The position numbers and the translations under genes are program-made. This document shows, in pieces, positions 291 through 16,055 of a stretch of 46,929 nucleotides of DNA. Origin of the DNA: Thauera terpenica 58Eu (GTDB lineage: Bacteria; Pseudomonadota; Gammaproteobacteria; Burkholderiales; Rhodocyclaceae); the NCBI RefSeq assembly GCF_000443165.1, contig NZ_ATJV01000055.1:1-46929 (forward strand), written 5' to 3'. The notes beneath the pieces were generated by a model. It was not told where the DNA came from, ran no database searches, and saw only the letters and a list, made by a program, of their open reading frames with translations. Within the stretch, counting starts at the first letter, position 1; each line of letters opens with the position of its first letter.

Positions 291-552
291 GGTTGGCGAT
301 CCAGGCCGCACCGGCGGCCAGCGCATCGGCCTCGCTGGCATAGGTTGTCGATGGGCCGCTGATGATGCAGGGCTCGGTTTCGCCGTCGCCTTCCACTGTC
401 CATAGCTCCCAGGTTCCGTCATTTTTCCAGCTGGGGATGGCGGTGTAGGGTTTGTCTTTCAGCGCAGCCAGCGCGGCATCCACTTCGGGACGGATTTGCA
501 ACTCACCCGAGTAGATATAAGGTGTCGCGCAACGGGCATCAGATCGGCTCAT
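271..552 (-). CDS. Small unknown protein, last gene of the leftward operon
   Basis: A 93-residue soluble protein with no signal peptide or membrane segment. The middle is rich in aromatic residues (W42, W48, W51) and acidic residues, and the C-terminal third is an Ala-rich helix ending near IANLNSIPR. The ATG at 552 lies 14 bases inside the end of the SLOG-like gene upstream, which points to translational coupling. A longer reading from 771 exists, but its first 73 residues overlap that neighbour and read as noise. I do not recognise the family. Its position makes it the most distal gene of the controller-linked operon. Confidence 0.6.
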   Translation of the reverse strand: MSRSDARCATPYIYSGELQIRPEVDAALAALKDKPYTAIPSWKNDGTWELWTVEGDGETEPCIISGPSTTYASEADALAAGAAWIANLNSIPR

Positions 553-1003
553 GTTCCGTGCTCCAGAAAAGGCCCAGCAGCGTGCTCGCCTGCAGGTAAA
601 TACCGGGGTTGCGTGCTTCACTCGGGCCAGCAATGTTGAGAATAGCGATGGCATGACCAACCAGCCAGTCTTGCCATGCCGCCAACAGCTCTTCTGTAGG
701 GTCATGCAAATCGCACAGCAGCAGCGGCTTGCCGTGTCCCGTCGCCAGATCGCGAGTGAGCAAGCTGCCACCTTCGAGCCTGTCCCGGTAAAGGATCAGT
801 GTGGCATCAGAGTCCAGCACATTGCGTTTGGTGCGCTGGCGGTAGCCGCTGGATTCGGTCTCCAGCAACTGGTAGCGAGCATCCAGTACGCCATCAGCGG
901 CCCGTCGGCCTGCCGGGCACCAACCGCCGTGCGGAATCTGCCGGGCAATGGCGAAATCCAGCGCCGCCCGGTCTACGCCGGTTTGGCCGCCGGAGATGAT
1001 CAT
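539..1003 (-). CDS. YpsA/SLOG-like nucleotide-binding protein (putative molybdenum-carrier family)
   Basis: The N-terminus IISGGQTGVDRAALDFA is the signature of the putative molybdenum-carrier/YpsA branch of the SLOG superfamily, a Rossmann-like fold that binds nucleotides or their derivatives. A second motif, GGSLLTRDLA, about 80 residues on, fits the second ligand loop. Length is 154 residues, normal for the family. I start at the ATG at 1003 because family members begin one residue before the first strand. A TTG at 1018, overlapping the stop of the upstream lipoprotein gene as TTGA and preceded by AAAGGG, is an equally possible start. SLOG proteins are known as ligand sensors in phage defence and as modified-nucleoside enzymes. 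Which applies here cannot be told. Confidence 0.75.
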   Translation of the reverse strand: MIISGGQTGVDRAALDFAIARQIPHGGWCPAGRRAADGVLDARYQLLETESSGYRQRTKRNVLDSDATLILYRDRLEGGSLLTRDLATGHGKPLLLCDLHDPTEELLAAWQDWLVGHAIAILNIAGPSEARNPGIYLQASTLLGLFWSTEHEPI

Positions 1004-1014
1004 TAGAACGCCAA

Positions 1015-1644
1015 TCAATCCAGACCCTTTGCTTCCCAGCCTTGGCTGGTCAGCTTGACGGCGTGCTTGGATTCCTTGTTGCCAACACCATCGAGAATGC
1101 TCTTGACCACCGGGAAAGCGGCTTGCACCTCGGGCTTCTTGGCCCAGTCGGCAAGGTCGTTGACATTATAGGTGTAGGTGATGCCTGCCTCCTGGTAGTC
1201 ACCGAGCTTCATCGGGCCTTCCCACTTCACCACCTTGTCGAGGCTCTTCTGTCCCCAGCACAGATCAGTCTGGGTCACCTTCTGGGAACCGTTCAAACCC
1301 CAACTGGTTGCTTCCTTCTCCCGGACAAAGGGTTTGGCGGCATCGGTCAGCGAACAACGCTGTCCCTTGTCCGCAGCTTCGCACTTCACCAGCCCGGCGG
1401 CCTCAAGCGCGGCCATCTGATTGGCTGTACCGCTTTGCATGGTCTTCTGAAGACGCATGTCCATTTCGGTGACCGCCACCGGGAAGTCGCGGTACTGGTT
1501 GAGGCACAACTGCCCCTTTTTCTCGAAATACTGGCTCAGCGCCGCACCGAAGTTCTTTTCGTTTGCATCGGTTTTGCTACCACAAGCGGCGAGCGTGACG
1601 GTGCCGAGTACGGCGAGGATGGCAAGCTGTTTGGACATAGGCAT
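1015..1644 (-). CDS. Unknown lipoprotein
   Basis: A 209-residue protein with a clear lipoprotein signal: a short positive start, a hydrophobic run and the lipobox LAAC at about residues 18-21. It should be anchored to the outer membrane or the periplasmic face of the inner membrane. The mature part has four further cysteines (in LCLNQ, VKCEA, RCSLT and LCWGQ), enough for two disulfides, and a C-terminal segment with TYTYNVNDLADWAKKPEV. No known domain is recognised. The ATG at 1644 has GGGAG just upstream; an ATG two codons later is also possible. It is followed at once by the SLOG-like gene and belongs to the same leftward operon. Confidence 0.7.
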   Translation of the reverse strand: MPMSKQLAILAVLGTVTLAACGSKTDANEKNFGAALSQYFEKKGQLCLNQYRDFPVAVTEMDMRLQKTMQSGTANQMAALEAAGLVKCEAADKGQRCSLTDAAKPFVREKEATSWGLNGSQKVTQTDLCWGQKSLDKVVKWEGPMKLGDYQEAGITYTYNVNDLADWAKKPEVQAAFPVVKSILDGVGNKESKHAVKLTSQGWEAKGLD

Positions 1645-1685
1645 GAACTCCCTGTTCTTGTTGGTGAATATGAATGAAAGTGGTG

Positions 1686-2057
1686 TCAGGACAGATCCCA
1701 GACTTCGATGGTCAGCACCTTGTCGGGCGGACAGGCAGCAATCTTGCCGTGATGCAAGATGACGTCGCGAGCCCGGTTGGCGGGCATCACATGGTCGTCG
1801 CCGATGACGGCAGGATCGTTGCGCGCTGGCGGGCCGCTCTCGATGATCGGCAGGACATCACTGGCCTTGGCCGTGTAACGGTTGGGATAGCCTCCCGACA
1901 GCAGTTGTACCGCCTTGCCTTCATCAACCAGCCGCTGCACCCAACCATTTCCGCCGACACTGGTTTCCCAGTTCGCCAGCACCGCATCCCTTCGACCAAT
2001 GCCTGTATCCCGCTCCTCGGGCGTCTGGGCGGCAATGACGATCCACCATCCGATCAT
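1686..2057 (-). CDS. Unknown small protein
   Basis: A 123-residue protein starting MIGWWIVIAAQTPEER. The start at 2057 is chosen because AAGGAAAGC lies directly upstream and because the upstream extension reads as out-of-frame sequence of the neighbour. The hydrophobic start is too short and too acidic afterwards for a clear signal peptide. Features include a Gly-rich stretch (SVGGNGW), a G-Y-P-N-R-Y motif and an H-H pair near the C-terminus. It lies 22 bases after the GIY-YIG-like gene. No family recognised. Its length and its SGGYP/GDDHVMPAN pattern suggest a compact alpha/beta fold, but this is only an impression. Confidence 0.6.
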   Translation of the reverse strand: MIGWWIVIAAQTPEERDTGIGRRDAVLANWETSVGGNGWVQRLVDEGKAVQLLSGGYPNRYTAKASDVLPIIESGPPARNDPAVIGDDHVMPANRARDVILHHGKIAACPPDKVLTIEVWDLS

Positions 2058-2079
2058 GCTTTCCTTCCTTCGTCTTCGA

Positions 2080-2763
2080 TCACAACGGAGTTCGACTGGC
2101 AACAAACAACTCGACAGGCGTGATGCCACGCTCGACCAGTTCCAGCAGGGGGAGAGACGCGGCAAAGACTTCCATTGCAGGCCAGCGATTCGGCTGGCCT
2201 GTTGGGTTTTCTGGCTGCGGCAACCGTCCCCAGTTATGGGCATCGGGAGCTTCGAAGCCCGCCTCAACCGCCAATTTCAGCCAGTAACCCTCAAATCGGG
2301 ATGCATAACTCTGGTCGCCATCAACCCATGAGAGAACGGTCGCACGAACCTCGGCCTGTTCGCGAACGGCCCACGCGAAGAGAGCGAACGAGGCATGGCC
2401 GGGGCGATGCCGACGAAGATGCTCACGAAATCGACGTTTGAGATTTACCGTCTGCCCGATGTAGCAGGCTTTTCGCTCGCCATTCCGGCTATGCGCCGTC
2501 AGCGCATAAATCCAGTATCCGCGTGAACGGATGACCGGGACGGCGCCCGTGCCAATCGAACATTCCGGCCTTGTAGGAAATGCGCCGCCGGCAAACGCGA
2601 AACGAATCCGGAACCGCTTCCCATCAGGCCCAAGCAACCCGATGTAATCACGCCCATTCCTTGTCACCGTCAGGCCGAGAGCTTCTGCACGCTCAAGCAG
2701 TTCTTGCTTCGTGTTGATTTGCCCAGAGGAGATGGCGGCTTGCAACGTGGCTTTCATCGTCAT
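2080..2763 (-). CDS. GIY-YIG-like protein with relaxase-like N-terminal region
   Basis: A 227-residue protein with two parts. Residues 17-55 (INTKQELLERAEALGLTV, then RDYIGLLGPDGKRFRIRF) resemble the segment that follows the catalytic domain in MobA/MbeA-type plasmid relaxases, where DYI-x(3)-DPDGKR-hR is typical. Residues 84-125 give YWIYAL, then CYIGQTVNLKRRFREHLRRH, matching the core of the GIY-YIG nuclease fold (aromatic strand, Y-I-G-x-T, the arginine and the basic helix). A Glu in FEGYW near residue 158 could be the metal ligand. It starts by ATGA overlap with the upstream gene. This is the only plausible nucleic-acid-cutting protein in the operon; activity is inferred from fold motifs only. 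Confidence 0.65.
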   Translation of the reverse strand: MTMKATLQAAISSGQINTKQELLERAEALGLTVTRNGRDYIGLLGPDGKRFRIRFAFAGGAFPTRPECSIGTGAVPVIRSRGYWIYALTAHSRNGERKACYIGQTVNLKRRFREHLRRHRPGHASFALFAWAVREQAEVRATVLSWVDGDQSYASRFEGYWLKLAVEAGFEAPDAHNWGRLPQPENPTGQPNRWPAMEVFAASLPLLELVERGITPVELFVASRTPL

Positions 2764-3479
2764 GAAACACTTGCGGCCTCGTTTTCATCGCCGTAGTAGC
2801 TTTCGCCTGCCGCTTGCTCGTTCCGCCAATAGCGGATCGTCTCGTCGATGCTTGCCCTGTCGTGAGCCTCGATCTCCTCCCAGACACCATGCTGTTTCCA
2901 GTCATCGAAGGTCTGCTCATGCAGTTTTTCCGCGACCTCGGCAAGAGCCATTTTCGGATCAAACAGCTCTTCGTGGTCGATGCCCGGATTGAACCAGTCG
3001 TCAGGGGCGTATCCATTGGGCAGATCGCAAAAGCGCCACCATCCGCGATAGATCTCAGGCGTGCGGCGGGCGCAGTCGGCAAGATACTCGGCCTCATCCT
3101 TGTCCGACCATGTACCCCGTTCAATCCGTGAGCCACGGTAGGCATCACGGTCATGGAAGAAGCATTCGTGCATTCTGGGATCGTGTTTCGCCCAGTCGTA
3201 AAAGTCACAACCGATGCCCGACTGTCCCCACCGCATAACGGTTCGCACGACGGCAGACTTCGACGTGCCGAACACCCATTCGTATTCGCGCAAGAAGGTC
3301 TGTCCGCTGGTTACGCCTTTGCCCTCGCAGGCAAGTTCGAATTGGCCCTTGTGCTCCTCCCAGAATTGCTCAAGCTCATCGAGTGTCCGCAGGGTGGCAA
3401 ACATGACGCCATCCTCAAGCAAGACGCGCTCGGGCAACTTGATGTCCACAGGCAACAGCGGCTTTTTCTTCGGCTTCAT
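2760..3479 (-). CDS. Unknown acidic soluble protein
   Basis: A 239-residue protein, strongly acidic and rich in aromatic residues, with no signal peptide or membrane helix. Visible landmarks are a Lys-rich start (KPKKK), a C-D-F-Y-D-W motif near residue 92, an ECFFHDRDAYRG motif, and an Asp/Glu-dense C-terminal half with many Trp. It overlaps both neighbours by ATGA, so it is translated in step with the proteins at 3476-4261 and 2080-2763. That suggests the three act together. The high acid content would suit a DNA mimic or a partner of a basic protein, but nothing in the sequence proves it. Family not recognised. Confidence 0.65.
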   Translation of the reverse strand: MKPKKKPLLPVDIKLPERVLLEDGVMFATLRTLDELEQFWEEHKGQFELACEGKGVTSGQTFLREYEWVFGTSKSAVVRTVMRWGQSGIGCDFYDWAKHDPRMHECFFHDRDAYRGSRIERGTWSDKDEAEYLADCARRTPEIYRGWWRFCDLPNGYAPDDWFNPGIDHEELFDPKMALAEVAEKLHEQTFDDWKQHGVWEEIEAHDRASIDETIRYWRNEQAAGESYYGDENEAASVS

Positions 3480-4261
3480 CGAACTGGCATCCCAAGTTGG
3501 GCAGAAGGGTAGTCAACGCTTGCCAGTGCCTCTTGCTCACGCACCAATGGCAGGTGATCACGCGGCACCGCCTCGGACGACACCCAATCGGTTTCGCCAA
3601 TCGCGAGGAAGCGGTCAATCGCAGCTTCGATAGCTGCTTGATTGATGACCTCCACATCCAGGACGATACGAAGGCCAATCCCGTAGGCATAGCTCCAGTC
3701 GAGCTTGAACGATTCGTAGATCACAGGCGGCTCGTCGCGAATGATGGCTGTTTCCAGCAGGTCGATCTGCTCGGAGAGTGTCCGTCCGTCGAACTGTACG
3801 TACCGAACAGGTTCTCGCTTCACCATCCGATAGGTGAGAACCTTCCCCGTGCGCGAGACATCGGCTGGCTCGAAATCCAGCTTTGATTCCCTGTCCAGGC
3901 CGGCGTCTCCCAGTGCTGCGTAGGCCCGCGAGGATGCCTCGTGGTGCGCGGCATCCCAGAACGCTTGCCGTGCCGTCACAATCTCGGCGTTCCAGATCGT
4001 GAATCGATCCATGCCGAGGAAGTAAAAGTCGAACCATTGGTTGTACAGATCGGGGCGGCCCGGCTCGTTTAGCACGAGATGGCTGGTGAATCGCCCGCCA
4101 TATTCGGCGGCGTCGCGACGCATCTTACCTTTGAGGCGGATGACCTCATCGCTTCGCTTACGCCGTGGCAAAGAGCTGAAGGGAGGGCGTTGCTTTCGAT
4201 GACGCAGGCTCATGCATCCATTCCCACTGTTGCAACCCATCCAGTTTGGGTTCTCAGGCAT
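3476..4261 (-). CDS. Unknown soluble protein
   Basis: Up to 261 residues. The first 46 residues are basic and low in structure, and a second start at 4123 (MRRDAAEYGGRF) has AAAGG just upstream, so the mature protein may be about 215 residues. Landmarks include FTIWNAEIVTARQAFWDAAH, a tyrosine-rich core (YRMVKREPVRYVQF) and an Asp-rich C-terminal third. There is no signal peptide or transmembrane helix. The 3' end overlaps the next gene by ATGA. It opens a coupled three-gene block with the genes at 2760 and 2080, possibly from its own promoter in the gap at 4262-4327. No family is recognised. Confidence 0.6.
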   Translation of the reverse strand: MPENPNWMGCNSGNGCMSLRHRKQRPPFSSLPRRKRSDEVIRLKGKMRRDAAEYGGRFTSHLVLNEPGRPDLYNQWFDFYFLGMDRFTIWNAEIVTARQAFWDAAHHEASSRAYAALGDAGLDRESKLDFEPADVSRTGKVLTYRMVKREPVRYVQFDGRTLSEQIDLLETAIIRDEPPVIYESFKLDWSYAYGIGLRIVLDVEVINQAAIEAAIDRFLAIGETDWVSSEAVPRDHLPLVREQEALASVDYPSAQLGMPVR

Positions 4262-4269
4262 GCAAAATC

Positions 4270-4300
4270 ATTATGCTATGTTGCAACGCAGAGTTGTCAC
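4270..4300 (-). promoter_or_regulatory. Possible weak promoter inside the leftward operon
   Basis: On the minus strand a GTGACA (4295-4300) is followed after 19 bases by CATAAT (4270-4275), upstream of the gene at 3476-4261. The spacing is long and the boxes are imperfect, so this is only a candidate. The gap of 66 bases is the largest in this part of the operon. Confidence 0.2.
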
Positions 4301-4327
4301 TCATTAGCAATAGGCGCCTTTCAACAG

Positions 4328-4753
4328 CTATTGCCCCACATTCTGCCCCTGCCAGACCTCCGTGCAGCTCACTAAAACCTCTGCGCTGGGCTGATCTGCC
4401 GATAGCTGGCCGATGCGCCCGCGCTGGCTGGCAAGCTTCAGTTGCTCGCGCACCTGTTCCAGGCTGCGCTTTTCAATAACCGCTGTATAGCTTGCACCCA
4501 GCTCGCCATCCGGGTCGATGAACAGCTCGATCCGCTTCACCGGCAACCCGAACACCGTGAAGCTGCGTGCCGGCGTCAGCGCCCAACTGCCGGGAGCATT
4601 GGGCGCAATGCCCTCCAGCACGCGCATCGGCAAGGCTTGGCGGCATTCCACGGCGGCGACAATGGCCGGCTCGATCCGCAACCAGCGGTCGATGTCTGTC
4701 GTATTGCCATCCATCAGCACAACCGGCATGGCCGCCAGCAGCAACGCCTTCAT
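4328..4753 (-). CDS. Unknown small protein with a hydrophobic start
   Basis: A 141-residue protein that begins MKALLLAAMPVVLMDG, which could serve as a short, weak export signal. The body has two cysteines (AAVECRQAL and VSCTEVW) that could pair, and the segment FTVFGLPVKRIELFIDPDGE reads as a beta-hairpin. It starts by ATGA overlap with the end of the lipoprotein gene upstream, so the two are translationally coupled and may act together in the envelope. The family is unknown. Confidence 0.6.
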   Translation of the reverse strand: MKALLLAAMPVVLMDGNTTDIDRWLRIEPAIVAAVECRQALPMRVLEGIAPNAPGSWALTPARSFTVFGLPVKRIELFIDPDGELGASYTAVIEKRSLEQVREQLKLASQRGRIGQLSADQPSAEVLVSCTEVWQGQNVGQ

Positions 4754-5394
4754 CCCTTGATGTTCCTGATCCAGAAGCGGCGGTCATCGACCGTGAAGTT
4801 GGGGTCGTAGCCGACCAGGGTCAGCAGCGAACCGACATAGTAAAGGCCGAACTGATTCATCAGCCAGCGCTCCATCGCCGGGTCGCCGGGCAACTTGCTG
4901 TACGGTGGGGTTGGCCCGTCACTGCGAACCTGACCACTGGTTTTGCCGGAGATGGAAAAGCTCTTCCAAGTCAGCACGAAATTGTTCGACTGTTTCGGCA
5001 GCTCCGGCGCGCAGAGCGACAGATTGCTGAAGCGCTCGGAGCGCTTGGCGTCGTGCCAGAGTACTGCGTCAAAGCGAATACAATCACTGGCTTTGAGCGT
5101 GAGGCTACGGGTCAGCGTCATCTGATCAGCCGGAATTTGCAGATTGCTGATCGCCACCTTGGGCCATTCCGGGGCGCGGCCGTCGGTAGACAGATTCTGG
5201 CGCAAGGCGTTATGCAGTGGAGTGCCCAGCAAGCTGTTTCGGGTTGCCGCGCTTGCGGGCGTAGCCGCTTGCGACAGACTGGTTCCAATGGAGTGTCCTA
5301 GTCCGTTCAGGGAATCCAGCGCCCCCTGCATGTCGGTTGTGGCACAACCCGTCAATACAAAAGGCAGAAGCAATAAGCTCCGGTAGTGTTTCAT
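4750..5394 (-). CDS. Unknown lipoprotein
   Basis: A 214-residue protein with lipobox LTGC at about residues 13-16 (MKHYRSLLLLPFVLTGC). The start at 5394 has GAGG upstream; a longer reading would put an unlikely leader before the signal peptide. The mature part has a low-complexity Ser/Gly/Ala stretch, then a beta-rich domain with two cysteines (ASDCIRFDAV and LSLCAPEL) that may form a disulfide. The C-terminal part has MERWLMNQFGLYYVGSLL and DDRRFWIRN. It lies between the membrane protein at 5412 and the small protein at 4328, with gaps of 17 and -4 bases, so it is part of one envelope-facing unit. The family is unknown. Confidence 0.65.
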   Translation of the reverse strand: MKHYRSLLLLPFVLTGCATTDMQGALDSLNGLGHSIGTSLSQAATPASAATRNSLLGTPLHNALRQNLSTDGRAPEWPKVAISNLQIPADQMTLTRSLTLKASDCIRFDAVLWHDAKRSERFSNLSLCAPELPKQSNNFVLTWKSFSISGKTSGQVRSDGPTPPYSKLPGDPAMERWLMNQFGLYYVGSLLTLVGYDPNFTVDDRRFWIRNIKG

Positions 5395-5411
5395 CGCAGT
5401 TCCTCGCGAGG

Positions 5412-6068
5412 TTATCCGTTGAAGAGGGTATTGAGCCGGGCGCACCAGGTTTCCGCCGCCCGACGGCTCATGGGAAAACTGAGCAGCGGTCGTTGCGGGT
5501 CGGCGGTTTGCAGCTCGATGGCGAAGTCCTTGGCGCGCACCGTGCGCTCGAAGGTCGGCACGCTCATGCCGCTGGCGTTGACCTGACGGCTACCGCCGTT
5601 CATCTCCATGCTCTCGACCTCGCGCCAGGTCATCCGCCACCCAAGCAGCCAGGAGAAGTCGTGGATACGCCAGGCTTCATCCACGATTGAGCAGACAGCC
5701 AGTTTGCGATGCTGCCGGTCAAACACTAGAAAGGCCGGCGCGGGGTAGCCCAAGAGATGTCCAGCATCGAATGACAGCCCCTGCTGAGCGTTGAGCTTGG
5801 CTACAAGTGCCTGACAGCGGGCCTGCAAGCGCGCCAGAAAGCGGAAGGACAGCATGAAGATCGCCAGCGAAATCAGCAGATAGAGCATCAGCTCACTGGT
5901 CAACAGTCCCCAAAGCGATGTCTGTGACAGGCGCGCAGGCCCCACGCCGAACATCGCCAGTACAAGAATCAGCGTAAGAGCAGTGGCAGCAAGACCTGAA
6001 AGCCCAGCCACCGGAACTGCCAGCCCCGCAGCCGCCCCCATCCCAGCAGTCTTCCAGACGCTTGCCAT
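5412..6068 (-). CDS. Two-helix membrane protein, first gene of the controller-linked operon
   Basis: A 218-residue protein. Residues 10-42 are a long Ala/Gly/Leu hydrophobic stretch and residues 55-75 form a second helix (LMLYLLISLAIFMLSF). A cytoplasmic domain of about 140 residues follows. That domain has FLVFDRQHRKLAVCSI, then IHDFSWLLGWRMTWREVESMEM, a layout seen in small membrane proteins with a pleckstrin-like beta domain (DUF4755-like; tentative). The start at 6068 has a strong ribosome site, GGAGGTGA, seven bases upstream. It is the first gene after the promoter at 6104-6132, which is overlaid by C-box-like sites, so its expression should respond most directly to the controller at 6212. 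Confidence 0.7.
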   Translation of the reverse strand: MASVWKTAGMGAAAGLAVPVAGLSGLAATALTLILVLAMFGVGPARLSQTSLWGLLTSELMLYLLISLAIFMLSFRFLARLQARCQALVAKLNAQQGLSFDAGHLLGYPAPAFLVFDRQHRKLAVCSIVDEAWRIHDFSWLLGWRMTWREVESMEMNGGSRQVNASGMSVPTFERTVRAKDFAIELQTADPQRPLLSFPMSRRAAETWCARLNTLFNG

Positions 6069-6089
6069 ACGTCATCACCTCCATGTTGT

Positions 6090-6114
6090 TACTCATAGAG
6101 GTCATTCTATGGCG
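6090..6114. promoter_or_regulatory. C-box-like operator pair beside the leftward start
   Basis: TACTCATAGAG at 6090-6100 is followed at 6104-6114 by ATTCTATGGCG. The first is identical to the element at 6175-6185 near the controller gene. Both fit the 4-3-4 pattern of restriction-modification C-boxes (ACT, central TAT or CAT, AGT-like). They lie between the leftward -10 box and the first gene, the position expected for repression. Confidence 0.55.
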
Positions 6115-6132
6115 CTTGAATTAAATTGTCAC
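6104..6132 (-). promoter_or_regulatory. Leftward sigma-70-type promoter of the unknown operon
   Basis: On the minus strand GTGACA (6127-6132) is followed by exactly 17 bases and TAGAAT (6104-6109). Both boxes are one base off consensus. The -35 box overlaps a C-box-like element at 6130-6140 and the -10 box overlaps elements at 6090-6114, so a bound controller should block or modulate it. Confidence 0.6.
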
Positions 6133-6185
6133 TTATAGTGCGGGCACCTATCGGGCGTAGCCCTATAGAGGGGGTACTCATAGAG
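6130..6185. promoter_or_regulatory. Array of four C-box-like elements at a 15-bp period
   Basis: Elements CACTTATAGTG (6130), CACCTATCGGG (6145), GCCCTATAGAG (6160) and TACTCATAGAG (6175) are each 11 bp with 4-bp gaps. All have TAT or CAT at the centre. The first pair with its CGGG gap closely parallels the C-box pair described for PvuII-type controllers (11 bp, a 4-bp CGTG-like gap, 11 bp). The array ends 26 bases before the controller start, and the rightward promoter there has no good -35 box, which would suit activation by the bound protein. Confidence 0.65.
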
Positions 6186-6211
6186 TCATTTCTCTTTAAG
6201 AAGAGAGAAAT

Positions 6212-6451
6212 ATGGCCCTTGATCCCCGACTACGCTTCGGCTTGAAGCTGATAGAAATCAGAAAGACCAGAGGGTGGTCGCAAGAACGCCTGGCACTGGA
6301 AAGTGGCTTGGCGCGCAGCTATCTGGGGGGTGTTGAGCGTGGGCAACGCAACATCGCCTTACTCAACATCTTCAAGCTGGCCGAGGCACTGGGGGTGGAG
6401 CCTTCAGTACTGCTGGAGGCGCCGGCTGCTGGACAGGAGCCAACTCCGTAA
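6212..6451 (+). CDS. Restriction-modification controller (C) protein-like regulator
   Basis: A 79-residue single-domain helix-turn-helix protein. RKTRGWSQERLALESGLARS gives the helix-turn-helix, and YLGGVERGQRNIALLNI is the hallmark of C proteins such as C.PvuII, C.AhdI and C.Esp1396I (Y-h-G-G-h-E-R-G-x-R-N-h-x-L-x-N). Known C proteins dimerise, activate their own gene at low level and repress it at high level through paired C-boxes; such boxes are present just upstream. The start at 6212 has AAGAGAG before it. No restriction enzyme or methyltransferase gene is next to it. The leftward operon at 271-6068 is the likely target. A palindromic repeat follows the stop codon directly. Confidence 0.8.
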   Translation: MALDPRLRFGLKLIEIRKTRGWSQERLALESGLARSYLGGVERGQRNIALLNIFKLAEALGVEPSVLLEAPAAGQEPTP

Positions 6452-6485
6452 CATCGTAGCGCTACGTTATCGTAGCGTTACGATG
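6452..6485. repeat. Two tandem 12-bp palindromes that together form a hairpin
   Basis: The arm CATCGTAGCGCTACG (6452-6466) pairs with 6471-6485 at 14 of 15 positions across a TTAT loop. Each half also contains its own palindrome: CGTAGCGCTACG (6455-6466, perfect) and CGTAGCGTTACG (6471-6482, one mismatch), 16 bp apart. There is no T-run after it, so a plain terminator is unlikely. It may be an operator for the hipBA module or a transcript-end structure of the controller gene. Confidence 0.6.
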
Positions 6486-6527
6486 GTCTCCGCATGATCG
6501 CTCGCGGCAGCTATCGCAGCCATCTGC

Positions 6528-6556
6528 TTTCAAGAACAAGTAAAGCCCACTACAAT
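6528..6556 (+). promoter_or_regulatory. Promoter of the hipBA module
   Basis: TACAAT at 6551-6556 is a good -10 box, with TTTCAA at 6528-6533 at 17-bp spacing as a weak -35 box. The stretch CACTACAATG recurs at 8392-8401 before the second hipB copy, which supports its function. Confidence 0.55.
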
Positions 6557-6560
6557 GGCG

Positions 6561-6587
6561 CTTACGCAATTTTTTTCGCGTTAAGGG
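6561..6587 (+). promoter_or_regulatory. Imperfect inverted repeat with T7 tract in the hipB leader
   Basis: CTTACGC (6561-6567), a run of seven T (6570-6576) and GCGTTAAGG (6578-6586) form an imperfect inverted repeat between the -10 box and the start codon. The right arm includes the ribosome site AAGGG. The same arrangement, with different but compensating arm bases, precedes the second hipB copy. It could be the HipB operator or act in the RNA. Confidence 0.5.
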
Positions 6588-6595
6588 TCATAAAA

Positions 6596-6907
6596 GTGAC
6601 TTTTCATCTCTCAACTCCCGCTGAGATCCTGCATGCGCTGGGTGTTCGTCTGCGCGAGCAGCGGCTTGCCCAATCGCTCACGCAGCGTGAACTGGCGCAA
6701 ATGGCCGGACTGTCCTTGGGGGCGTTGCGCAAACTCGAAAGCGACGGTCAGTGCTCACTGGAAACGCTGGTCCGTGTCGCGCAGGCACTTGGCTTGCTGG
6801 AGGCGCTGGACGATCTCTTCGTGCTCAAACGGCAATCCATCGCCCAGATGGAGCAGGTGGACCTTGTGAGCCGCCGCCAGCGTGCGCCGCGTAAGAGAGC
6901 ATCATGA
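6596..6907 (+). CDS. HipB-like antitoxin, XRE-family helix-turn-helix regulator
   Basis: A 103-residue protein. LRKQRLAQSLTQ-type sequence (here VRLREQRLAQSLTQRELAQM) opens a helix-turn-helix that continues AGLSLGALRKLESDGQCSLE. The C-terminal tail is basic (RRQRAPRKR). I start at GTG 6596 because AAGGG lies upstream and because the paralogue at 8440 aligns from the same residue (VTFHLSTPAEIL against VAFALSLPEEVL). An ATG-type reading from 6494 would run through the promoter. The stop overlaps hipA by ATGA. By analogy it should bind HipA and repress the operon from the leader repeat. Confidence 0.8.
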   Translation: MTFHLSTPAEILHALGVRLREQRLAQSLTQRELAQMAGLSLGALRKLESDGQCSLETLVRVAQALGLLEALDDLFVLKRQSIAQMEQVDLVSRRQRAPRKRAS

Positions 6908-8127
6908 AGCTGCTTACCGTGCATTATTGCGGCTGGGGAGAAGACTGGCCGTTGGGACGCCTGGCCGATGACGGTCAATCCCTGCTCTTCGAATATTCTC
7001 CCGAAGCCTTGTCTCAAGGCTTGGAACTGTCGCCCTTGCACCTCAAGCTGCGGGCGGATGCCTACGGAGGTTTTCCGATCCATTTGCATCGCCTTCCGGG
7101 CCTGATCGCCGACAGTCTGCCTGACGGCTGGGGTTTGCTGCTGATGGATCGGTTGTTCCGTCAACACGGCTTGCGCCATCCCGGGCCACTGGACCGGCTG
7201 GCCTTCATTGGTGAGCGCGCGATGGGCGCGTTGCGCTTCGTTCCGGCAAGCGACGCCGGCGCCCACGAGCCCGACTGGTCCTTGCTGGCGCTGGCCGAGC
7301 AAAGCCGTCTCGCGCTCGCGGGCGAGGCGGGGGCAGCCCTGCGCGAGCTCGCGCTCACCGGCGGCTCACCGCAAGGGGCTCGCCCCAAGGCCTTGGTGCA
7401 GTACGACGCAATGACCGGGCAAGTCAGCACCCGTCCGGATGCGCCCGGCAGTCCCTGGCTGGTCAAGTTCCCGGCGCAGAACGAACACAAAGAGGTTTGC
7501 GTCATCGAGCAGCTCTATGCCGAGTTGGCTCGGGATTGCGGACTGGATGTGCCCGAAAGTCGTTGGTTCGACCTTGGCCCCGAACTGGCCGCCTTCGGCG
7601 TCGCGCGCTTCGACCGGGAGGGAGGGCAACGCGTCCCGGTGCACAGTCTGGCTGGATTGTTGCAAGTGGATTTTCGCCTGCCCGGTGCCACCGACTATAC
7701 CGCCTTCCTGCGGGCTACCCGTTTCCTGACGCGCGACGAGCGCGAAGTGGAGAAAGCCTACGCACGAGCCGTCTTCAATGTGCTTTTCCACAACCGTGAC
7801 GACCATCCCAAGAATTTCGCGTGGCGTCTCGGGCCTGACCGGCGCTGGCGTCTGGCTCCGGCATTCGACCTGACCTTCAGCGAAGGCCCGATGGGCCAGC
7901 ATCACCTGGACGTTTGCGGCGAAGGTGCTGCCATCGAACGCCGGCATTTATTGCGTCTGGCGGAGGAAGGTGGCGTCCCAAGGAAACGGGCGGAAGAGGT
8001 CATCGAACGGATGTTGCTGCAGGCAAGCTCATTGGGTGAGCGGTTGGAGCGTGCGCCGATCAGGCAGATGCTGGTGCAACAGATCAAATCCACCATTGAT
8101 GCCTGTCGCCGGCGCCTGGAAAGCTGA
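6904..8127 (+). CDS. HipA-family serine/threonine kinase toxin
   Basis: A 407-residue HipA-type kinase, close to the usual length. The N-lobe has LPDGWGLLLMDRLF, the Gly-rich loop LTGGSPQGARPKALV lies at about 155-169, and the catalytic segment FHNRDDHPKNFAW holds the Asp, the Lys-Asn pair and the family-typical HxKN arrangement. It is followed by the metal-binding region APAFDLTFS. Known HipA proteins phosphorylate aminoacyl-tRNA synthetases or translation proteins and arrest growth; the target here is unknown. It is translationally coupled to hipB by ATGA. All key motifs are intact, so it is probably active. A scrap of a sister gene survives at 8802-8915. Confidence 0.88.
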   Translation: MKLLTVHYCGWGEDWPLGRLADDGQSLLFEYSPEALSQGLELSPLHLKLRADAYGGFPIHLHRLPGLIADSLPDGWGLLLMDRLFRQHGLRHPGPLDRLAFIGERAMGALRFVPASDAGAHEPDWSLLALAEQSRLALAGEAGAALRELALTGGSPQGARPKALVQYDAMTGQVSTRPDAPGSPWLVKFPAQNEHKEVCVIEQLYAELARDCGLDVPESRWFDLGPELAAFGVARFDREGGQRVPVHSLAGLLQVDFRLPGATDYTAFLRATRFLTRDEREVEKAYARAVFNVLFHNRDDHPKNFAWRLGPDRRWRLAPAFDLTFSEGPMGQHHLDVCGEGAAIERRHLLRLAEEGGVPRKRAEEVIERMLLQASSLGERLERAPIRQMLVQQIKSTIDACRRRLES

Positions 8128-8162
8128 ATCCGAGCCGGCGCAACGGCGCCAGATCACGGTTG

Positions 8163-8212
8163 AACATACTCAATGCTGAGTTTCTTGAGTACAAACATGA
8201 GTATGTTTTTTA
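8163..8212 (+). terminator. Long inverted repeat with T-run after hipA
   Basis: AACATACTCA (8163-8172) and TGAGTATGTT (8198-8207) are perfect 10-bp arms, with smaller CTGAG/CTTGAG elements inside, followed by TTTT. It lies 35 bases after the hipA stop. A terminator is most likely. The AT-rich arms could also be an operator. Confidence 0.5.
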
Positions 8213-8394
8213 ATGGAGCAGCATGGTTAACTTTTCATTCAATGACTTGCAGTCACAATCGCTGTTCAACGTCTGAGCGCATACGGACATTTCCGCCGAT
8301 TGCTCCGGAAAGCGGCCTGGCACGCCGCTGGCGCCCTCATCGGGCGTGCTCCTCTTATACGGCAGGCCTCTCTACCCATTAGCTTAAAAGCCAC

Positions 8395-8430
8395 TACAAT
8401 GAACCCTAATCGATTTTTTTGCTGATTAGG
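8395..8430 (+). promoter_or_regulatory. Promoter and perfect inverted repeat of the second hipB copy
   Basis: TACAAT (8395-8400) is the -10 box. CCTAATC (8405-8411) and GATTAGG (8424-8430) are perfect 7-bp arms around a 12-base centre with seven T. Spacing between the -10 box and the T-tract is 13 bases, against 13 in the first copy. The right arm supplies AGG for the ribosome site. Confidence 0.55.
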
Positions 8431-8439
8431 TGCATTAAC

Positions 8440-8814
8440 GTGGCTTTTGCCTTGTCGCTACCCGAGGAAGTGCTATTTGCGCTGGGCACTCGTTTGCGCA
8501 AGCAACGGCTTGCCCAGAGTTTGACGCAGCGCGATCTGGCGCACATGGCCGGGCTGTCACTGGGCGCACTGCGCAAGCTGGAGTCGGACGGACAATGTTC
8601 TCTCGCAACCCTGGTGCGGGTGGTGCAAGCCTTGGGCCTCAGCGCTGAACTGGACGAGCTCTTCGTCCTCAAGCGCCAGTCCATCGCCCAGATGGAACAG
8701 GCCCAAGCCGTCGAACAGCGCCAACGCGCGCCGCGCCGCAAATCGCCATCAAGCAGATCTCCGTCCAGTAAAGCGGCTGGGGTGAAGATTGGCCACTACG
8801 TGAGCCAGCCCTGA
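8440..8814 (+). CDS. Second HipB-like regulator, orphaned
   Basis: A 124-residue paralogue of the protein at 6596. The first 97 residues align almost without gaps; LRKQRLAQSLTQRDLAHMAG and the following LSLGALRKLESDGQCSL are nearly identical. After RQRAPRR the tail is replaced by a Ser/Lys-rich extension that ends in HYVSQP. The GTG start at 8440 matches the start of the first copy. Its hipA partner is reduced to about 22 recognisable codons, in another frame, at 8802. The regulator may still act, possibly on the intact hipBA copy, given the similar leaders. It arose by tandem duplication or by import of a related module. Confidence 0.75.
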   Translation: MAFALSLPEEVLFALGTRLRKQRLAQSLTQRDLAHMAGLSLGALRKLESDGQCSLATLVRVVQALGLSAELDELFVLKRQSIAQMEQAQAVEQRQRAPRRKSPSSRSPSSKAAGVKIGHYVSQP

Positions 8815-8915
8815 CCGGCGGCTCACCACAGGGAGCCCGCCCCAAGGCGCTGGTGCAATACGACACGATGAGTTGCCGCTTGCAGCGCATCCCTGAGCGG
8901 AACGCTCAACACTGA
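8802..8915 (+). pseudogene. Remnant of a second hipA
   Basis: In the frame starting at 8802 the translation begins EPALTGGSPQGARPKALVQY, against ELALTGGSPQGARPKALVQY in the intact HipA (its residues 152-171). After about 22 codons similarity ends, and a stop occurs at 8913-8915. Residues 1-151 and everything after about 175 are missing. The join to the hipB tail is direct, so an internal deletion removed the start of the kinase and a second event removed its end. Confidence 0.75.
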
Positions 8916-8935
8916 GCGCGACGCCACGCACACGC

Positions 8936-10477
8936 CTACAGCGTATCCAGCCGCGCGCGTATTTGCAGCGCCTGCGCCTTCAAGGCATCAAGCTGGGGTC
9001 CGTGCATTTTTTGCAGTTGACGGTACACCATCCCCAAGCGATGGTTGCCACTCAGCAGCGCTTGGTGGCGATCAAAGAAATCCCAGTACAAGGCATTGAA
9101 GGGGCAGGCGCGTTCGCCCAGCTTTTGCTTGTGATCGTAGCGACAGCCCTGGCAATAGTCGCTCATGCGATGGATGTAGGCCGCGCTGCTGACATAGGGC
9201 TTGGTGGCAATCAGACCGCCATCGGCCCATTGGCTCATGCCCAGGGTGTTGGGCAGTTCCACCCACTCGAAGGCGTCGATATAGATGCCCAGATACCAGC
9301 GGTGTAGTGCCTGCGGGTCCAGCCCGGCGAGCAGCGCAAAGTTGCCTATCACCATCAGGCGCTGGATGTGATGCGCGTGCGCCGTGTGCAGCGACTGTCC
9401 GATCGCGTGCTGCAGGCAGCGCATGCCGGTGTCGCCGCTCCAGAACCAGTGCGGCAAAGGCTGATGATGGTCGAGCGCATTGTGCTGCGCGTAAGCCGGC
9501 ATGTGCGCCCAGTAGATCCCGCGCACATACTCGCGCCAGCCCATGATCTGGCGAATGAAGCCCTCGACCGCGGCCAGTGGTGCAGCGCCGCTGTAGTAAG
9601 CCGCTTGTGCGCGCTGCACCACTTCGAGCGGGTGGAGCATTTTCACGTTGAGGGCGAATGACAGCAGCGAATGGAACAGGCGCTGGCCCGTGCTGCTCAT
9701 GGCGTCTTCAAAGTCGCCAAAGTGCGGTAGCCCATCCTGGATGAAGGCTTGCAGGCAGGCCAGCGCCTCGTCACGGTTCAGTGGCCAGCGCAGGCGGGCG
9801 GCCTGCGCGTCACCAAAGCTATTGACGCCGCAGTGCTGCACGCTTTGCCACAAGGCCTGATGGTCGTGTTGCGGGCGCGCATCCACCGGCTCGGCGGGCG
9901 TGCCCGGCCAGGGCTTGCGGTTATCGTGGTCGAAGTTCCACTTGCCGCCTTCAGGCTTGCCCTGGGCATCGATCAGCAGCCCGAAACGACGACGCATGTG
10001 GCGATAGAAGTGCTCCATCAGCCACTGTTTGCGCCCGGCGAAGAACTCGGCTATCTCATGACGAGTGCTCAGAAAATGCTCGCTGTCGACGCTTGCGCTG
10101 GCGAAGGCTTGATCCGTCGCCCACTGGCGCAGCTGCTCGTCCAGTCGCCATTCATCGGGCGCCTGCCACTCGATGCGCTGGGCATCGTAGTGCTGCATCA
10201 GCGCAGTCAGATTGTCAGGGATAGTCTGCCGGTTGCTCGGGTCGTCCACCGCCACATAGCGCACGCGATGTCCGGCGGCGCGCAGATGGCGGGCGAAGTC
10301 ACGCATGGCGGCAAAGATGGCGAGGATTTTCTGCGCATGGTGCAGGACGTAGTCGGTCTCCTGACGCACCTCCATCAGCACGTAGACCACCTGCGCATCC
10401 ACGGTTTGAAACCATGAATGCGCGGGATTGAGCTGATCGCCCAGCACCAGGCGCAAGCAGTGGCAGCTCGCCGTCAT
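8936..10477 (-). CDS. Iron-sulfur bacterial cryptochrome/photolyase (PhrB type)
   Basis: A 513-residue protein of the FeS-BCP/PhrB family. Characterised members repair (6-4) photoproducts and carry FAD, a lumazine antenna and a [4Fe-4S] cluster. The N-terminal Rossmann-like domain begins LRLVLGDQLNP, which is typical. The FAD-binding helical domain has RQIMGWREYVRG, MGIY-like segments (LGIYIDAFEWVELPNTLGMS) and a TKPYVSSAAYIHRM block. Four cysteines suit the cluster: one in DTGMRC, two in DYCQGC and one in RACPF. The start at 10477 overlaps the stop of the preceding remnant as ATGA; a start four codons earlier is possible. It is co-transcribed with the DUF2256 gene. Confidence 0.9.
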   Translation of the reverse strand: MTASCHCLRLVLGDQLNPAHSWFQTVDAQVVYVLMEVRQETDYVLHHAQKILAIFAAMRDFARHLRAAGHRVRYVAVDDPSNRQTIPDNLTALMQHYDAQRIEWQAPDEWRLDEQLRQWATDQAFASASVDSEHFLSTRHEIAEFFAGRKQWLMEHFYRHMRRRFGLLIDAQGKPEGGKWNFDHDNRKPWPGTPAEPVDARPQHDHQALWQSVQHCGVNSFGDAQAARLRWPLNRDEALACLQAFIQDGLPHFGDFEDAMSSTGQRLFHSLLSFALNVKMLHPLEVVQRAQAAYYSGAAPLAAVEGFIRQIMGWREYVRGIYWAHMPAYAQHNALDHHQPLPHWFWSGDTGMRCLQHAIGQSLHTAHAHHIQRLMVIGNFALLAGLDPQALHRWYLGIYIDAFEWVELPNTLGMSQWADGGLIATKPYVSSAAYIHRMSDYCQGCRYDHKQKLGERACPFNALYWDFFDRHQALLSGNHRLGMVYRQLQKMHGPQLDALKAQALQIRARLDTL

Positions 10478-10695
10478 GGCGCGGCCCACAGACGCCGATA
10501 CGCGCCGTCCGGGTCATGTTCGGCAGTCTGCTTGGCGACATTGAAACGCCGCCCGCCGCGCGGGTCCGTGCCGCGGCCAGCGATATACAAACAGTTGCCC
10601 TGCTTGCTATGGACGTCGTAATCCAGCAGCTGAGACTCGAACCACGCCGCGCCCGCGCGCCGGTCACCGCCAAACCAGTACAGCACGGTCGTCAC
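10474..10695 (-). pseudogene. Internally deleted DASH-type cryptochrome
   Basis: A 73-residue frame that joins the two ends of a DASH cryptochrome. It begins MTTVLYWF, like the family's N-terminal strand. It then jumps to AAWFESQLLDYDVHS, NCLYIAGRGTDPRGGRRFN and EHDPDGAYRRLW, which match the FAD-domain end (E-x-x-L-x-D-Y-D, G-x-G-x-D-P-R-x-x-R-x-F-N, Y-D-P-x-G-x-Y-x-x-x-W). Roughly 350-400 residues between them are missing. The usual Trp after GN is Cys here. The frame is still open and coupled to both neighbours: GTGA overlap at 10692-10695 and ATGA at 10474-10477. It may persist only to carry ribosomes into the photolyase gene. Confidence 0.7.
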
Positions 10696-10853
10696 GCCTC
10701 ACCTCCGGCACGCGGGCTGCGCTTGCGTTCGTGGCGGCAGCGCTCGGAGCAGTACTTCACCTCCGCCCACACCTTTTCCCATTTCTTGCGCCAGGCAAAG
10801 GGCAGGCCGCAGCGCTGGCAAAGTTTTTCAGGCAAATATGCTTTCTTGTGCAT
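10692..10853 (-). CDS. DUF2256 zinc-ribbon-like protein
   Basis: A 53-residue protein starting [19 protein letters not shown] and continuing with WRKKWEKVW, then YCSERCR. The two Cys pairs (CQRC and C-x3-C) suit one zinc ion. The family is usually found beside photolyase or cryptochrome genes, as here, and its biochemical role is unknown. It is short enough to be missed by gene finders, but the motif match is strong. The stop overlaps the start of the cryptochrome remnant. Confidence 0.88.
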
Positions 10854-10896
10854 GGTTCAAACACCCAGATTCGGGCTCTTCGCTGCCCCTGCTCGC

Positions 10897-11808
10897 TCAG
10901 CGCCCGCCCAGCGTCTTCAGCACATCGCGCACCACGCGCCAGCGACTGAGAACCAGGGCCGAAAAGATCAGCGCACAGCCCACAAACTGCTGCGCGCTCA
11001 TGCGCTCACCGAACCAGCCGGCGGCCAGCATCGCCGTCCACATCGGCTCCAGCATCAGGATCATCGAGGCGTGGCTGGGCGTGGTCAGGCTCTGGCCGTA
11101 AAGCTGGATGAAGAAGCGCAGGGTGGTGGCGATCAGCGCACTGGCCAGCACCCAGCCCAGCACCGGCAGCGACACCGCCGCAGGCCAGTTCTCGTAGAGC
11201 GCGGACGAGGGCAGCACGAGCACTCCGACCATGCTCACCTGCACCGCGCTCAGCGCCAGCGGCGGCACCTGGCGCACGACGCGGCCGTTGAGATTGATCA
11301 GCACCGCAAACACCAGCGCGGCGGCGAGGAAAAGCCACTGCCCGGGTTCGAAGCGAAAACCGTGCTCGAGCGAAAGGAAGGCAAAGCCCACCATGGCCAC
11401 CGGCATCGCCACCCAGGCGATGCGCGGCGGATGCTCGCCGAAAAACAGACGCGCCACGACCGGCACCAGCACCGCGCCCAGGCTGGAAATGAAAGCGCCT
11501 TCACCGAGATGGCTGGCATGCTCCAGGCCCTTGATCCACAGCATCATGGCCAGGGTGAACAGCGCCCCGACGAGCACGGAGCCGCGCCAGCCGGCACGAT
11601 CGAGCAGGCGCAACTGCCGCCAGCTGAAAGCCATCAACACCACGCCGGCGAGCAGGAAGCGCACGCCGACGAAGAGCAGCGGCGGCAGCCCGGCGAGCGA
11701 CTCCTTGGAAAAGATCCATCCCGCGGCAGCCACCAGCGTGGCGCCGACGAGGATCAGGTCCGCCTTGAGCGGATGAGGCGATTCGGGAGTCAGTCGCTCA
11801 GGCTCCAC
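10897..11808 (-). CDS. DMT-superfamily (EamA) transporter
   Basis: A 303-residue inner-membrane protein with about ten hydrophobic helices in two repeats of five, the EamA layout. Typical pieces are LLFVGVRFLLAGVVL in helix 2 of the first repeat, and PTW-like sequence near the end (MILMLEPMWTAMLAAGWFGE), which marks the second repeat. Such proteins export metabolites or amino acids; the substrate cannot be read from sequence. The start is taken as GTG 11808, which overlaps the end of the response-regulator gene by 11 bases. A longer reading to 11949 would cover that gene and adds unlikely sequence. It probably shares the regBA transcript. Confidence 0.8.
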   Translation of the reverse strand: MEPERLTPESPHPLKADLILVGATLVAAAGWIFSKESLAGLPPLLFVGVRFLLAGVVLMAFSWRQLRLLDRAGWRGSVLVGALFTLAMMLWIKGLEHASHLGEGAFISSLGAVLVPVVARLFFGEHPPRIAWVAMPVAMVGFAFLSLEHGFRFEPGQWLFLAAALVFAVLINLNGRVVRQVPPLALSAVQVSMVGVLVLPSSALYENWPAAVSLPVLGWVLASALIATTLRFFIQLYGQSLTTPSHASMILMLEPMWTAMLAAGWFGERMSAQQFVGCALIFSALVLSRWRVVRDVLKTLGGR

Positions 11809-12340
11809 CAGGCGGACGCGCAAGCTTGCGCTGCAGGGTGCGGCGGTGCATCTGCAGGGCACGCGCAGTGGCCGAGATATTGCCGTCGTTCTCAGCCAAT
11901 ACGCGCTGGATGTGCTCCCATTCGAGACGATCGACCGACATCGGCGCATCAGGCACGTGTTCGCCGATGATCACATCATCCGCCCGCAAGGCCTTGATGA
12001 TGGCATCGACCTCGGCCGGTTTGGCGAGATACTGGATGGCACCGAGCTTGACCGCATCCACCGCGGTGGCAATGCTGGCATAGCCGGTGAGCACCAGGAT
12101 GCGGACTCCGGGGCTGGCCTCAAGCAGCGGGCGGATCAGCTTGAGACCGGATTCGCCGCCAATATTGAGGTCGAGCACGATGAACTCGGGCGAATGATCC
12201 TGCGCCAGCTCCAGCGCCCCTTCGCTGTCGGTCGCACCATAGGTGTCGAAGCCGCGCTGGCTAAGCGCGCGTAGCAGGACGCGATTGAAGGCGGGATCAT
12301 CATCGACGACGAGCAGGGTGGGAGCGTGTTCCGGACTCAT
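11798..12340 (-). CDS. regA: RegA/PrrA-type response regulator
   Basis: A 180-residue response regulator of the RegA/PrrA/ActR family. The receiver domain has the acidic pair VVDDDP, the phospho-acceptor Asp57 in FIVLDLNIGG and the Lys of LAKPAEVD. The Fis-type helix-turn-helix at the end reads ISATARALQMHRRTLQRKL, which is near-invariant in the family. These regulators couple redox state to respiration, photosynthesis and nitrogen metabolism. The gene overlaps the sensor gene by 4 bases. Its position directly upstream of and divergent from nosZ makes nos control plausible, though unproven. Confidence 0.92.
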   Translation of the reverse strand: MSPEHAPTLLVVDDDPAFNRVLLRALSQRGFDTYGATDSEGALELAQDHSPEFIVLDLNIGGESGLKLIRPLLEASPGVRILVLTGYASIATAVDAVKLGAIQYLAKPAEVDAIIKALRADDVIIGEHVPDAPMSVDRLEWEHIQRVLAENDGNISATARALQMHRRTLQRKLARPPGGA

Positions 12341-13692: not shown

Positions 13693-13749
13693 TGAACTGA
13701 ATTCCTCTGTTTGCAAGGGCGAATCACCACCGGACCAAATGAGATTCCT

Positions 13750-13763
13750 TTAACCCAAATCAA
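13750..13763. promoter_or_regulatory. Degenerate FNR/DNR-like box before nosZ
   Basis: TTAAC-CCAA-ATCAA has one perfect half-site (ATCAA) and one poor one against TTGAT-N4-ATCAA. It lies 144 bases before nosZ and 58 bases before regB, so it could serve either direction. Confidence 0.35.
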
Positions 13764-13906
13764 GGTTTACTCCAGTGTGCAGACCTATAGTCCACCTGCG
13801 ACAAAACGCCACAGGACATTCTGTCACAGCCATCTGCGTCGTCTGCGCCCCGCACACGAACCCCGGATGACTGGACGGGCACCGATCAAGCCAGAACGGG
13901 AGCACC

Positions 13907-15868: not shown

Positions 15869-15911
15869 GCTCGGACTGCACCGTGTCACTCTTGAGTGAC
15901 GCCGTCTGAAG

Positions 15912-15940
15912 ATCGAGGGGCTCGCGCCCCTCGATTGCTT
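15912..15940 (+). terminator. Terminator after nosZ
   Basis: ATCGAGGGG (15912-15920) pairs perfectly with CCCCTCGAT (15927-15935) over a 6-base loop, followed by TGCTTT. It separates nosZ from nosR. Confidence 0.75.
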
Positions 15941-15985
15941 TCCGCCGTCTGCTCATCTCCGATTCTGGCGGCAGCCTGCGACAAT

Positions 15986-15999
15986 TTGACCCTAGACAA
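15986..15999 (+). promoter_or_regulatory. FNR/DNR-like box before nosR
   Basis: TTGAC-CCTA-GACAA resembles TTGAT-N4-ATCAA (7 of 10 fixed positions). Its centre lies about 63 bases before the nosR start, which leaves room for activation at the usual -41.5 position. Confidence 0.5.
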
Positions 16000-16055
16000 A
16001 TACGCGCAGGGTGTGGCGGCATAAACTCCATCGCAAGTTACTTATGGAGCTCATC

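Follow-up and report, generated by a model that had tools for sequence, protein, structure and literature searches.

On balance, we favour reading the short gap upstream of a small regulatory gene in Thauera terpenica 58Eu as a two-way switch, in which a stand-alone, autoregulated C-type controller shuts the promoter of the cargo that faces it: the controller probably turns itself on and the neighbouring operon off. The established role of C proteins is to time pairs of toxic enzymes, and a C-type device that was kept while driving different cargo would demonstrate the portability of the circuit as such. In other bacteria the same switch is met before different genes, with some 35 natural variants whose array length differs one operator at a time, and how operator number relates to switch behaviour becomes a directly testable question. 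Coordinates below refer to the window, i.e. the whole stretch of 46,929 nucleotides that was analysed. From left to right, the features of the gap and its controller are as follows.

6090–6100, plus strand: extra box TACTCATAGAG beside the divergent promoter, 14.8 bits, 40 bp left of box 1.
6104: element ATTCTATGGCG, overlapping the divergent -10 hexamer (6104–6109).
6104–6109, minus strand: divergent -10, TAGAAT, with a 17-bp spacer and 10 of 12 consensus matches.
6127–6132, minus strand: divergent -35, GTGACA, inside the core of box 1 as the reverse complement of TGTCAC.
6130–6140, plus strand: box 1, CACTTATAGTG, 15.4 bits, with the conserved core TGTCACTTATAG at 6127–6138.
6145–6155, plus strand: box 2, CACCTATCGGG, weak (6.1 bits), at the 15-bp period.
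6160–6170, plus strand: box 3, GCCCTATAGAG, 8.2 bits, overlapping the controller -35 position (6158–6163, TAGCCC).
6175–6185, plus strand: box 4, TACTCATAGAG, 14.6 bits, overlapping the controller -10.
6181–6186, plus strand: predicted controller -10, TAGAGT, inside box 4, placed by the TAnnnT offset rule.
6188–6211, plus strand: predicted leader hairpin with a 10-bp stem, directly 5' of the ATG (MFE -9.0, z -3.5, p 0.003).
6212–6451, plus strand: gene of the C-protein-like controller, 79 aa, HTH_3 match at 2.7e-15.

The 79-residue product of the open reading frame at 6212–6451 belongs to the small HTH_XRE proteins and is a homologue of known C proteins: it contains the motif YLGGVERGQRN, its best solved relative is C.AhdI (phmmer, 2.4e-18), and it is homologous also to C.BclI and C.Esp1396I, all of which bears out the C-protein-like controller that a preliminary description had proposed. 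Relatives were taken from the best 80 of 229 loci of a genome scan and from four places in a plasmid collection, so that 85 loci, window included, were examined upstream; once promoter regions more than 75% identical over 120 bp had been removed, 35 of 65 remained as representatives, again with the window among them. In all 35 the recognition helix reads SG[LIV]ARSY, as against GLDRSY in C.AhdI and GLDRTY, DLDRTY or GLHPTY in comparators from restriction-modification (R-M) systems; the DRSY, DRTY or HPTY of the C.AhdI/C.Esp1396I class is thus ARSY here. Boxes differ too, with AGTC in the first box of the comparators L101, L104 and L105 versus AGNG in window-type boxes, yet the link between helix and box is not clean, as L102 (GLDRSF) and L107 (GLHRTF) have neither. 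A controller tree from 76 columns, weakly supported, makes the box-bearing group a single change (support 50/44) and places the window's controller within a supported set of 10 rows.

The four elements at a 15-bp period, also claimed in the preliminary description, withstand scoring by a profile made elsewhere: trained on 84 boxes of other loci, with the window, L015 and L024 excluded to avoid circularity, it gives the four-box array 44.3, whereas 2000 mononucleotide shuffles of the gap reach 10.1 at most and the best array score listed for the window outside the gap is -0.9. On both strands of the 46.9-kb window, the three highest-scoring 11-mers of this profile are the boxes at 6130, 6090 and 6175 (beginning at 6129, 6089 and 6174, one base before the registers first assigned); those at 6090 and 6175 are the same sequence, TACTCATAGAG. 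Boxes 2 and 3 are individually weak. C-box operators at a 15-bp period thus stand before the controller's own gene, four in number, with the last over the -10. The six elements originally described keep their positions; those at 6104 and 6175 overlap -10 hexamers, however, and in relatives the usual number of boxes ahead of the -10 is two or three. Their assignment to the PvuII type has to be withdrawn: the window-group consensus is CACT-YAT-AGNG, whilst the published C-box consensus, as given in the portion of PMC4824078 available, is GACT-tat-AGTC, and window-type boxes do not have those half sites. The R-M comparators L101, L104 and L105 share the 15-bp period, and their second boxes carry AATC, TGTC and AGTC, respectively. 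A genome-wide regulon was considered and rejected, as the exact box pattern occurs in the window's genome at 6130 only, and boxes with at most one mismatch are no commoner than a reversed control (12 versus 21). Of 30 chosen genomes, 26 have a single box-1 site, two have a pair and two have none, against one match of the reversed control across all 30; being mostly single per genome, the site points to a local switch, with its position relative to the controller gene compared for L020 and L077. A strict three-box pattern matched in 0 of 369 genomes of the class, and in missing the window's own genome as well it proved too strict to be informative.

With at most one mismatch, the core TGTCACTYATAG precedes the gene in 65 of the 85 loci (the best 80 of 229 plus those added). 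The 20 loci lacking the array comprise 15 of an Azoarcus-type group, three cut by contig ends (L005, L011 and L048), the rearranged L014, and L067. The Azoarcus-type group (L028, L033, L037 and 12 further loci) shares a different gene set, and many of its members have a TTGTCTATTGTGGAAATCCACAAT-like promoter in place of the array; its helix, in the nine rows seen, is ARSY, yet the array is absent. Among box-bearing promoters, the position of the controller -10 is strikingly regular: counted from the first T of TGTCAC in the box-1 core, TAnnnT falls precisely at +39, +54 or +69 in 29 of the 35 representatives, against at most 6 of 35 (mean 0.7) for other triplets of offsets. Such quantised offsets indicate that array length varies by whole 15-bp operators, with two boxes before the -10 in 12 representatives, three in 16, four in one and an unclear number in six. 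Eleven loci found after these rules had been set have the core in 10 of 11; all 10 of these place the -10 at an offset that the rules predict, and 8 of the 10 have the divergent -10. This sample includes L109, which is near the window, and L111, L112, L113 and L119, which are near L059 or L068; counting new promoters only (L110, L115/L116, L114, L117 and L118), the figures are 4 of 5, 4 of 4 and 2 of 4.

Does the controller activate its own promoter, or does it only repress? The strongest boxes, namely 1, 4 and the one at 6090, are not at the expected activating position, so plain repression of both promoters also fits. Under that reading box 4 would be the main site of autorepression and there would be no activation, which agrees with boxes 4 (14.6 bits) and 1 (15.4 bits) being the strongest of an array whose boxes 2 and 3 are weak, and with the overlap between the -10 and a box-like word (9 bits or more) in 10 of 35 representatives, as at 6175. 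In the other 25, however, the -10 is either not box-like or not located. Moreover, the controller -35 has at best three of six consensus matches in 28 of 29 representatives and four in the remaining one (with words such as TGGCCT; the window, with TAGCCC at 6158–6163, has no -35 consensus), and the last box holds the same place relative to the -10 whatever the length of the array, as expected of an activator position. We therefore consider pure repression an unlikely, if serious, alternative to a controller that activates itself.

Between the -10 and the start codon, leaders fold more stably than their shuffled counterparts (mean z -2.1), significantly so (p<0.05) in 15 of the 25 representatives that have a leader; ten show no significant hairpin, five further representatives appear leaderless, and another five, in which the -10 is not near its expected place, lie outside this test. 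Stem pairing is kept with different letters, for example in L069, L072 and L074, and as the sequence differs between lineages while the pairing persists, we think it unlikely that the hairpin is a protein operator. Leaderless C messages are known and have been tied to low translation, whilst the EcoRV message is not leaderless, according to the accessible parts of PMC5333194 and PMC4824078. Perhaps both forms of leader, hairpin and leaderless, serve to keep translation of the controller low.

On the other strand, GTGACA-17-TAGAAT is the one promoter-like site found in 5950–6650. Shuffles of this region yield 0.4 such sites on average, so a divergent promoter alone is not rare, and the weight rests on comparison across loci and not on the site in the window. 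There, a divergent TAnnnT lies exactly 17 bp from GTGACA in 24 of 35 representatives, against 0–3 of 35 at each of the other spacers (12–16 and 18–22 bp), and of the 22 called representatives that have this -10, 21 show a divergent left neighbour, as do 8 of the 11 without it. Six of the 11 representatives (of 35) without the 17-bp -10 are Burkholderiales (L055, L069, L070, L072, L074 and L077), and as all six retain TGTCAC, this hexamer probably also serves the controller itself. Of the 34 representatives tested (L060, too short, was left out), 10 have an extra box of at least 10 bits, versus 1.3% of 1989 control segments, and nine of these ten boxes sit 37–40 bp left of box 1; the operator O_M, a third operator at the M gene of Esp1396I, is comparable, as described in the available text of PMC3758141. 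In its geometry the region is laid out as a C switch, in which box 1 would couple repression of the divergent promoter to the filling of the array.

How might such a switch run? In the absence of the controller, the divergent promoter would be on and the operon at 539–6068 would be made, whilst the controller promoter, with no -35, would at first leak slowly and yield a message that we propose is poorly translated, since the hairpin covers the region before the ATG. Accumulating dimers would then bind and fill the 15-bp array, presumably cooperatively: occupancy of box 1 would cover the divergent -35, occupancy of 6090 would cover the divergent start region, and dimers adjacent to the -10 would bring polymerase to the controller's own promoter. 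Once the controller is abundant, boxes 3 and 4, lying over the -35 and -10, would limit that promoter in turn. The outcome could be a timed pulse, in which divergent cargo is expressed early and expression then terminates itself, or else a bistable, two-state switch.

What, then, is the cargo? In the window, an operon of unknown genes does face the controller, as first described; of the ten genes attributed to it, at least eight are clear, and the far end runs off the contig, as the window starts at contig base 1.

5412–6068, minus strand: first divergent gene, 218 aa, two long helices and a beta domain, weakly PH-like.
4750–5445, minus strand: lipoprotein-like protein, 231 aa; a 70% homologue faces the controller in L045.
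4328–4753, minus strand: protein of no assigned family, 141 aa, in the divergent operon.
3476–4261, minus strand: protein of no assigned family, 261 aa; in L062 and L080, homologues immediately follow the controller downstream.
2760–3479, minus strand: protein of no assigned family, 239 aa, in the divergent operon.
2080–2763, minus strand: GIY-YIG domain protein (Pfam, 3.9e-8), in the divergent operon.
1015–1644, minus strand: lipoprotein-like protein, 209 aa, in the divergent operon.
539–1018, minus strand: cpYpsA SLOG protein (Pfam, 4.6e-52), in the divergent operon.

The operon of the window's group thus combines a predicted membrane protein, lipoprotein-like proteins and a SLOG protein. 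We take the two long helices of the first protein to be membrane helices; it has no Foldseek match at E<=0.001, and PH-like is a lead only (3hsa, Foldseek probability 0.72). In relatives, divergent genes form nine BLAST clusters and eight singles (1e-6), and 26 of them match five Pfam families in total, each in one or two members (E<=0.01). The clusters do not exclude remote kinship, as one divergent gene is bPH_2 and the window's first is weakly PH-like. A QseM-type divergent partner was sought and not found among these 26 by Pfam, with DUF2285 in none (E<=0.01). A wider neighbour scan, with a simple caller of open reading frames and at most two genes per side, covered 129 genes in 34 of the 35 representatives, and no Pfam family occurs in more than three of these genes (E<=1e-4; 25 of 90 families listed).

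No R-M family is present among the window proteins scanned (539–18239), in agreement with the preliminary description. Could the controller nonetheless be a remnant of an R-M system that lost its R and M genes, persisting without present function? Its family is kin to R-M controllers and to ones annotated beside methyltransferases, and R-M-type genes lie within two genes of the controller in at least 3 of 34 representatives (L019, L058, and L044 with type I R and S), a lower bound, as ten of the 129 neighbours were scanned singly with PADLOC. Such single scans gave no defence genes in L068 and L015; elsewhere QatAB, MzaA and PDC-S53 stand near the controller in L045, L063 and L077, and matches to ThsB1 and mad8 are among the first 25 of 198 PADLOC families listed. 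A methyltransferase motif search flagged 11 proteins in 10 of 84 loci, including one close to the controller of L035 that may be a methyltransferase, and is incomplete, since it missed the C5 methyltransferase of L058. Against a remnant, the array, the -10 steps and the divergent promoter are kept over some 65–100% protein identity and many genera, and operon and controller occur together across different genera, such that we hold this explanation to be highly improbable. The contrary outcome foreseen in the preliminary description, that homologues always sit beside R-M genes with the operon absent, is false: 15 of the 18 nearest loci (L001–L018) have operon genes next to the controller, and as for the remaining three, contig ends truncate L005 and L011, and L014 has lost both array and operon.

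Another possibility is that the controller regulates the genes downstream of it (hipBA-like here, ICE or defence genes elsewhere) and that the divergent gene is incidental. Downstream genes of this kind are, in some Burkholderiales (L084 and L076), DUF3577 and antirestriction genes, in L045 QatAB, and in L044 the type I R and S. However, within the window's group hipBA is absent from L004, L007, L013, L015 and L016 despite the same array, and the divergent promoter is tailored to the array; we regard downstream targets as distinctly doubtful, and return to a switch directed at the divergent side.

The controller is sporadic: 7 of 41 relatives have it, as do 2 of 150 genomes in the order, with the window's own genome counted each time. 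In 13 of 64 box-bearing loci a custom profile places a tyrosine integrase no more than 10 kb away, tRNA-Ala adjoins in L021, L026 and L036, and RepA and an integrase stand beside the controller in L004; mobile islands thus carry the controller over part of its range. We could tentatively go further: given divergent genes of nine BLAST clusters and eight singles behind a control region that is kept, it is conceivable, if short of probable, that a transferable cassette of controller, 15-bp-step array, embedded divergent promoter and hairpin left R-M and is now an establishment switch for exchangeable cargo on proteobacterial islands.

Where does this arrangement stand among known systems? With the C.AhdI/C.Esp1396I class the controller shares sequence similarity and, going by the available sections of PMC3758141, two adjacent operators before the C gene, of which OR forms part of the -35; in contrast, here there are no adjoining R-M genes, the boxes are CACT-YAT-AGNG, and there are often three of them. 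We do not class it as an R-M controller, since both linkage to regulated R and M genes (none among window proteins in 539–18239, and R-M-type genes nearby in at least 3 of 34 representatives) and the half-site sequence are wanting. EcoRV-type C/M systems also have one control region common to two divergent promoters (PMC5333194, in the part available), yet the divergent partner here is cargo of changing kind and not a methyltransferase. In QseC/QseM of symbiosis ICEs, an HTH regulator is likewise divergent from its target, and the switch is described as bistable, in the available portions of PMC8627217, PMC10359603 and PMC5882170; as far as sequence can tell, only the geometry of that bistable repression is comparable here. 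QseC is only distantly similar to the controller (9e-4), and the 26 divergent genes lack DUF2285. By analogy, our controller may work like a C protein in an EcoRV-type divergent layout and like QseC/QseM. Phage TF-smORF modules, in what is available of PMC10432266, have C-protein-like regulators acting on an adjacent small gene outside R-M and, unlike the controller here, they control prophage induction. Nor is a three-repeat array new in itself, given HsdC of Acholeplasma, whose three tandem repeats, (AACGAATN12)3, precede an R-M operon; these differ in sequence from the array here and are placed on R-M operons (PMC5282649, as far as its text is available). Our literature search, which did not cover Sorokin et al. 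2009 and 2010, met no account of this controller group.

Some further observations concern the surroundings of the module. Two or three controller paralogues occur per genome in G399, G404 and G422. A 524-aa AAA ATPase with a weak TRIP13-like match is conserved and convergent with the divergent operon in 12 loci (L004:4816–6390 and equivalents). Downstream of the controller in the window lies a HipB-like and HipA-like pair (6494–8127; HipA_C, 7.3e-42), which relatives have or lack irrespective of the controller. An inverted repeat at 6452–6485, lying between the controller and the HipB-like gene, with 15-nt arms that are 93% complementary and no T run, is possibly the HipB operator. Right of the module, within 8936–18239, the genes are of chromosome type, namely a RegB-type kinase followed by nosZ and a NosR-like gene, and the same interval contains a 517-aa open reading frame that matches no family and which we take to be cryptochrome/photolyase-like.
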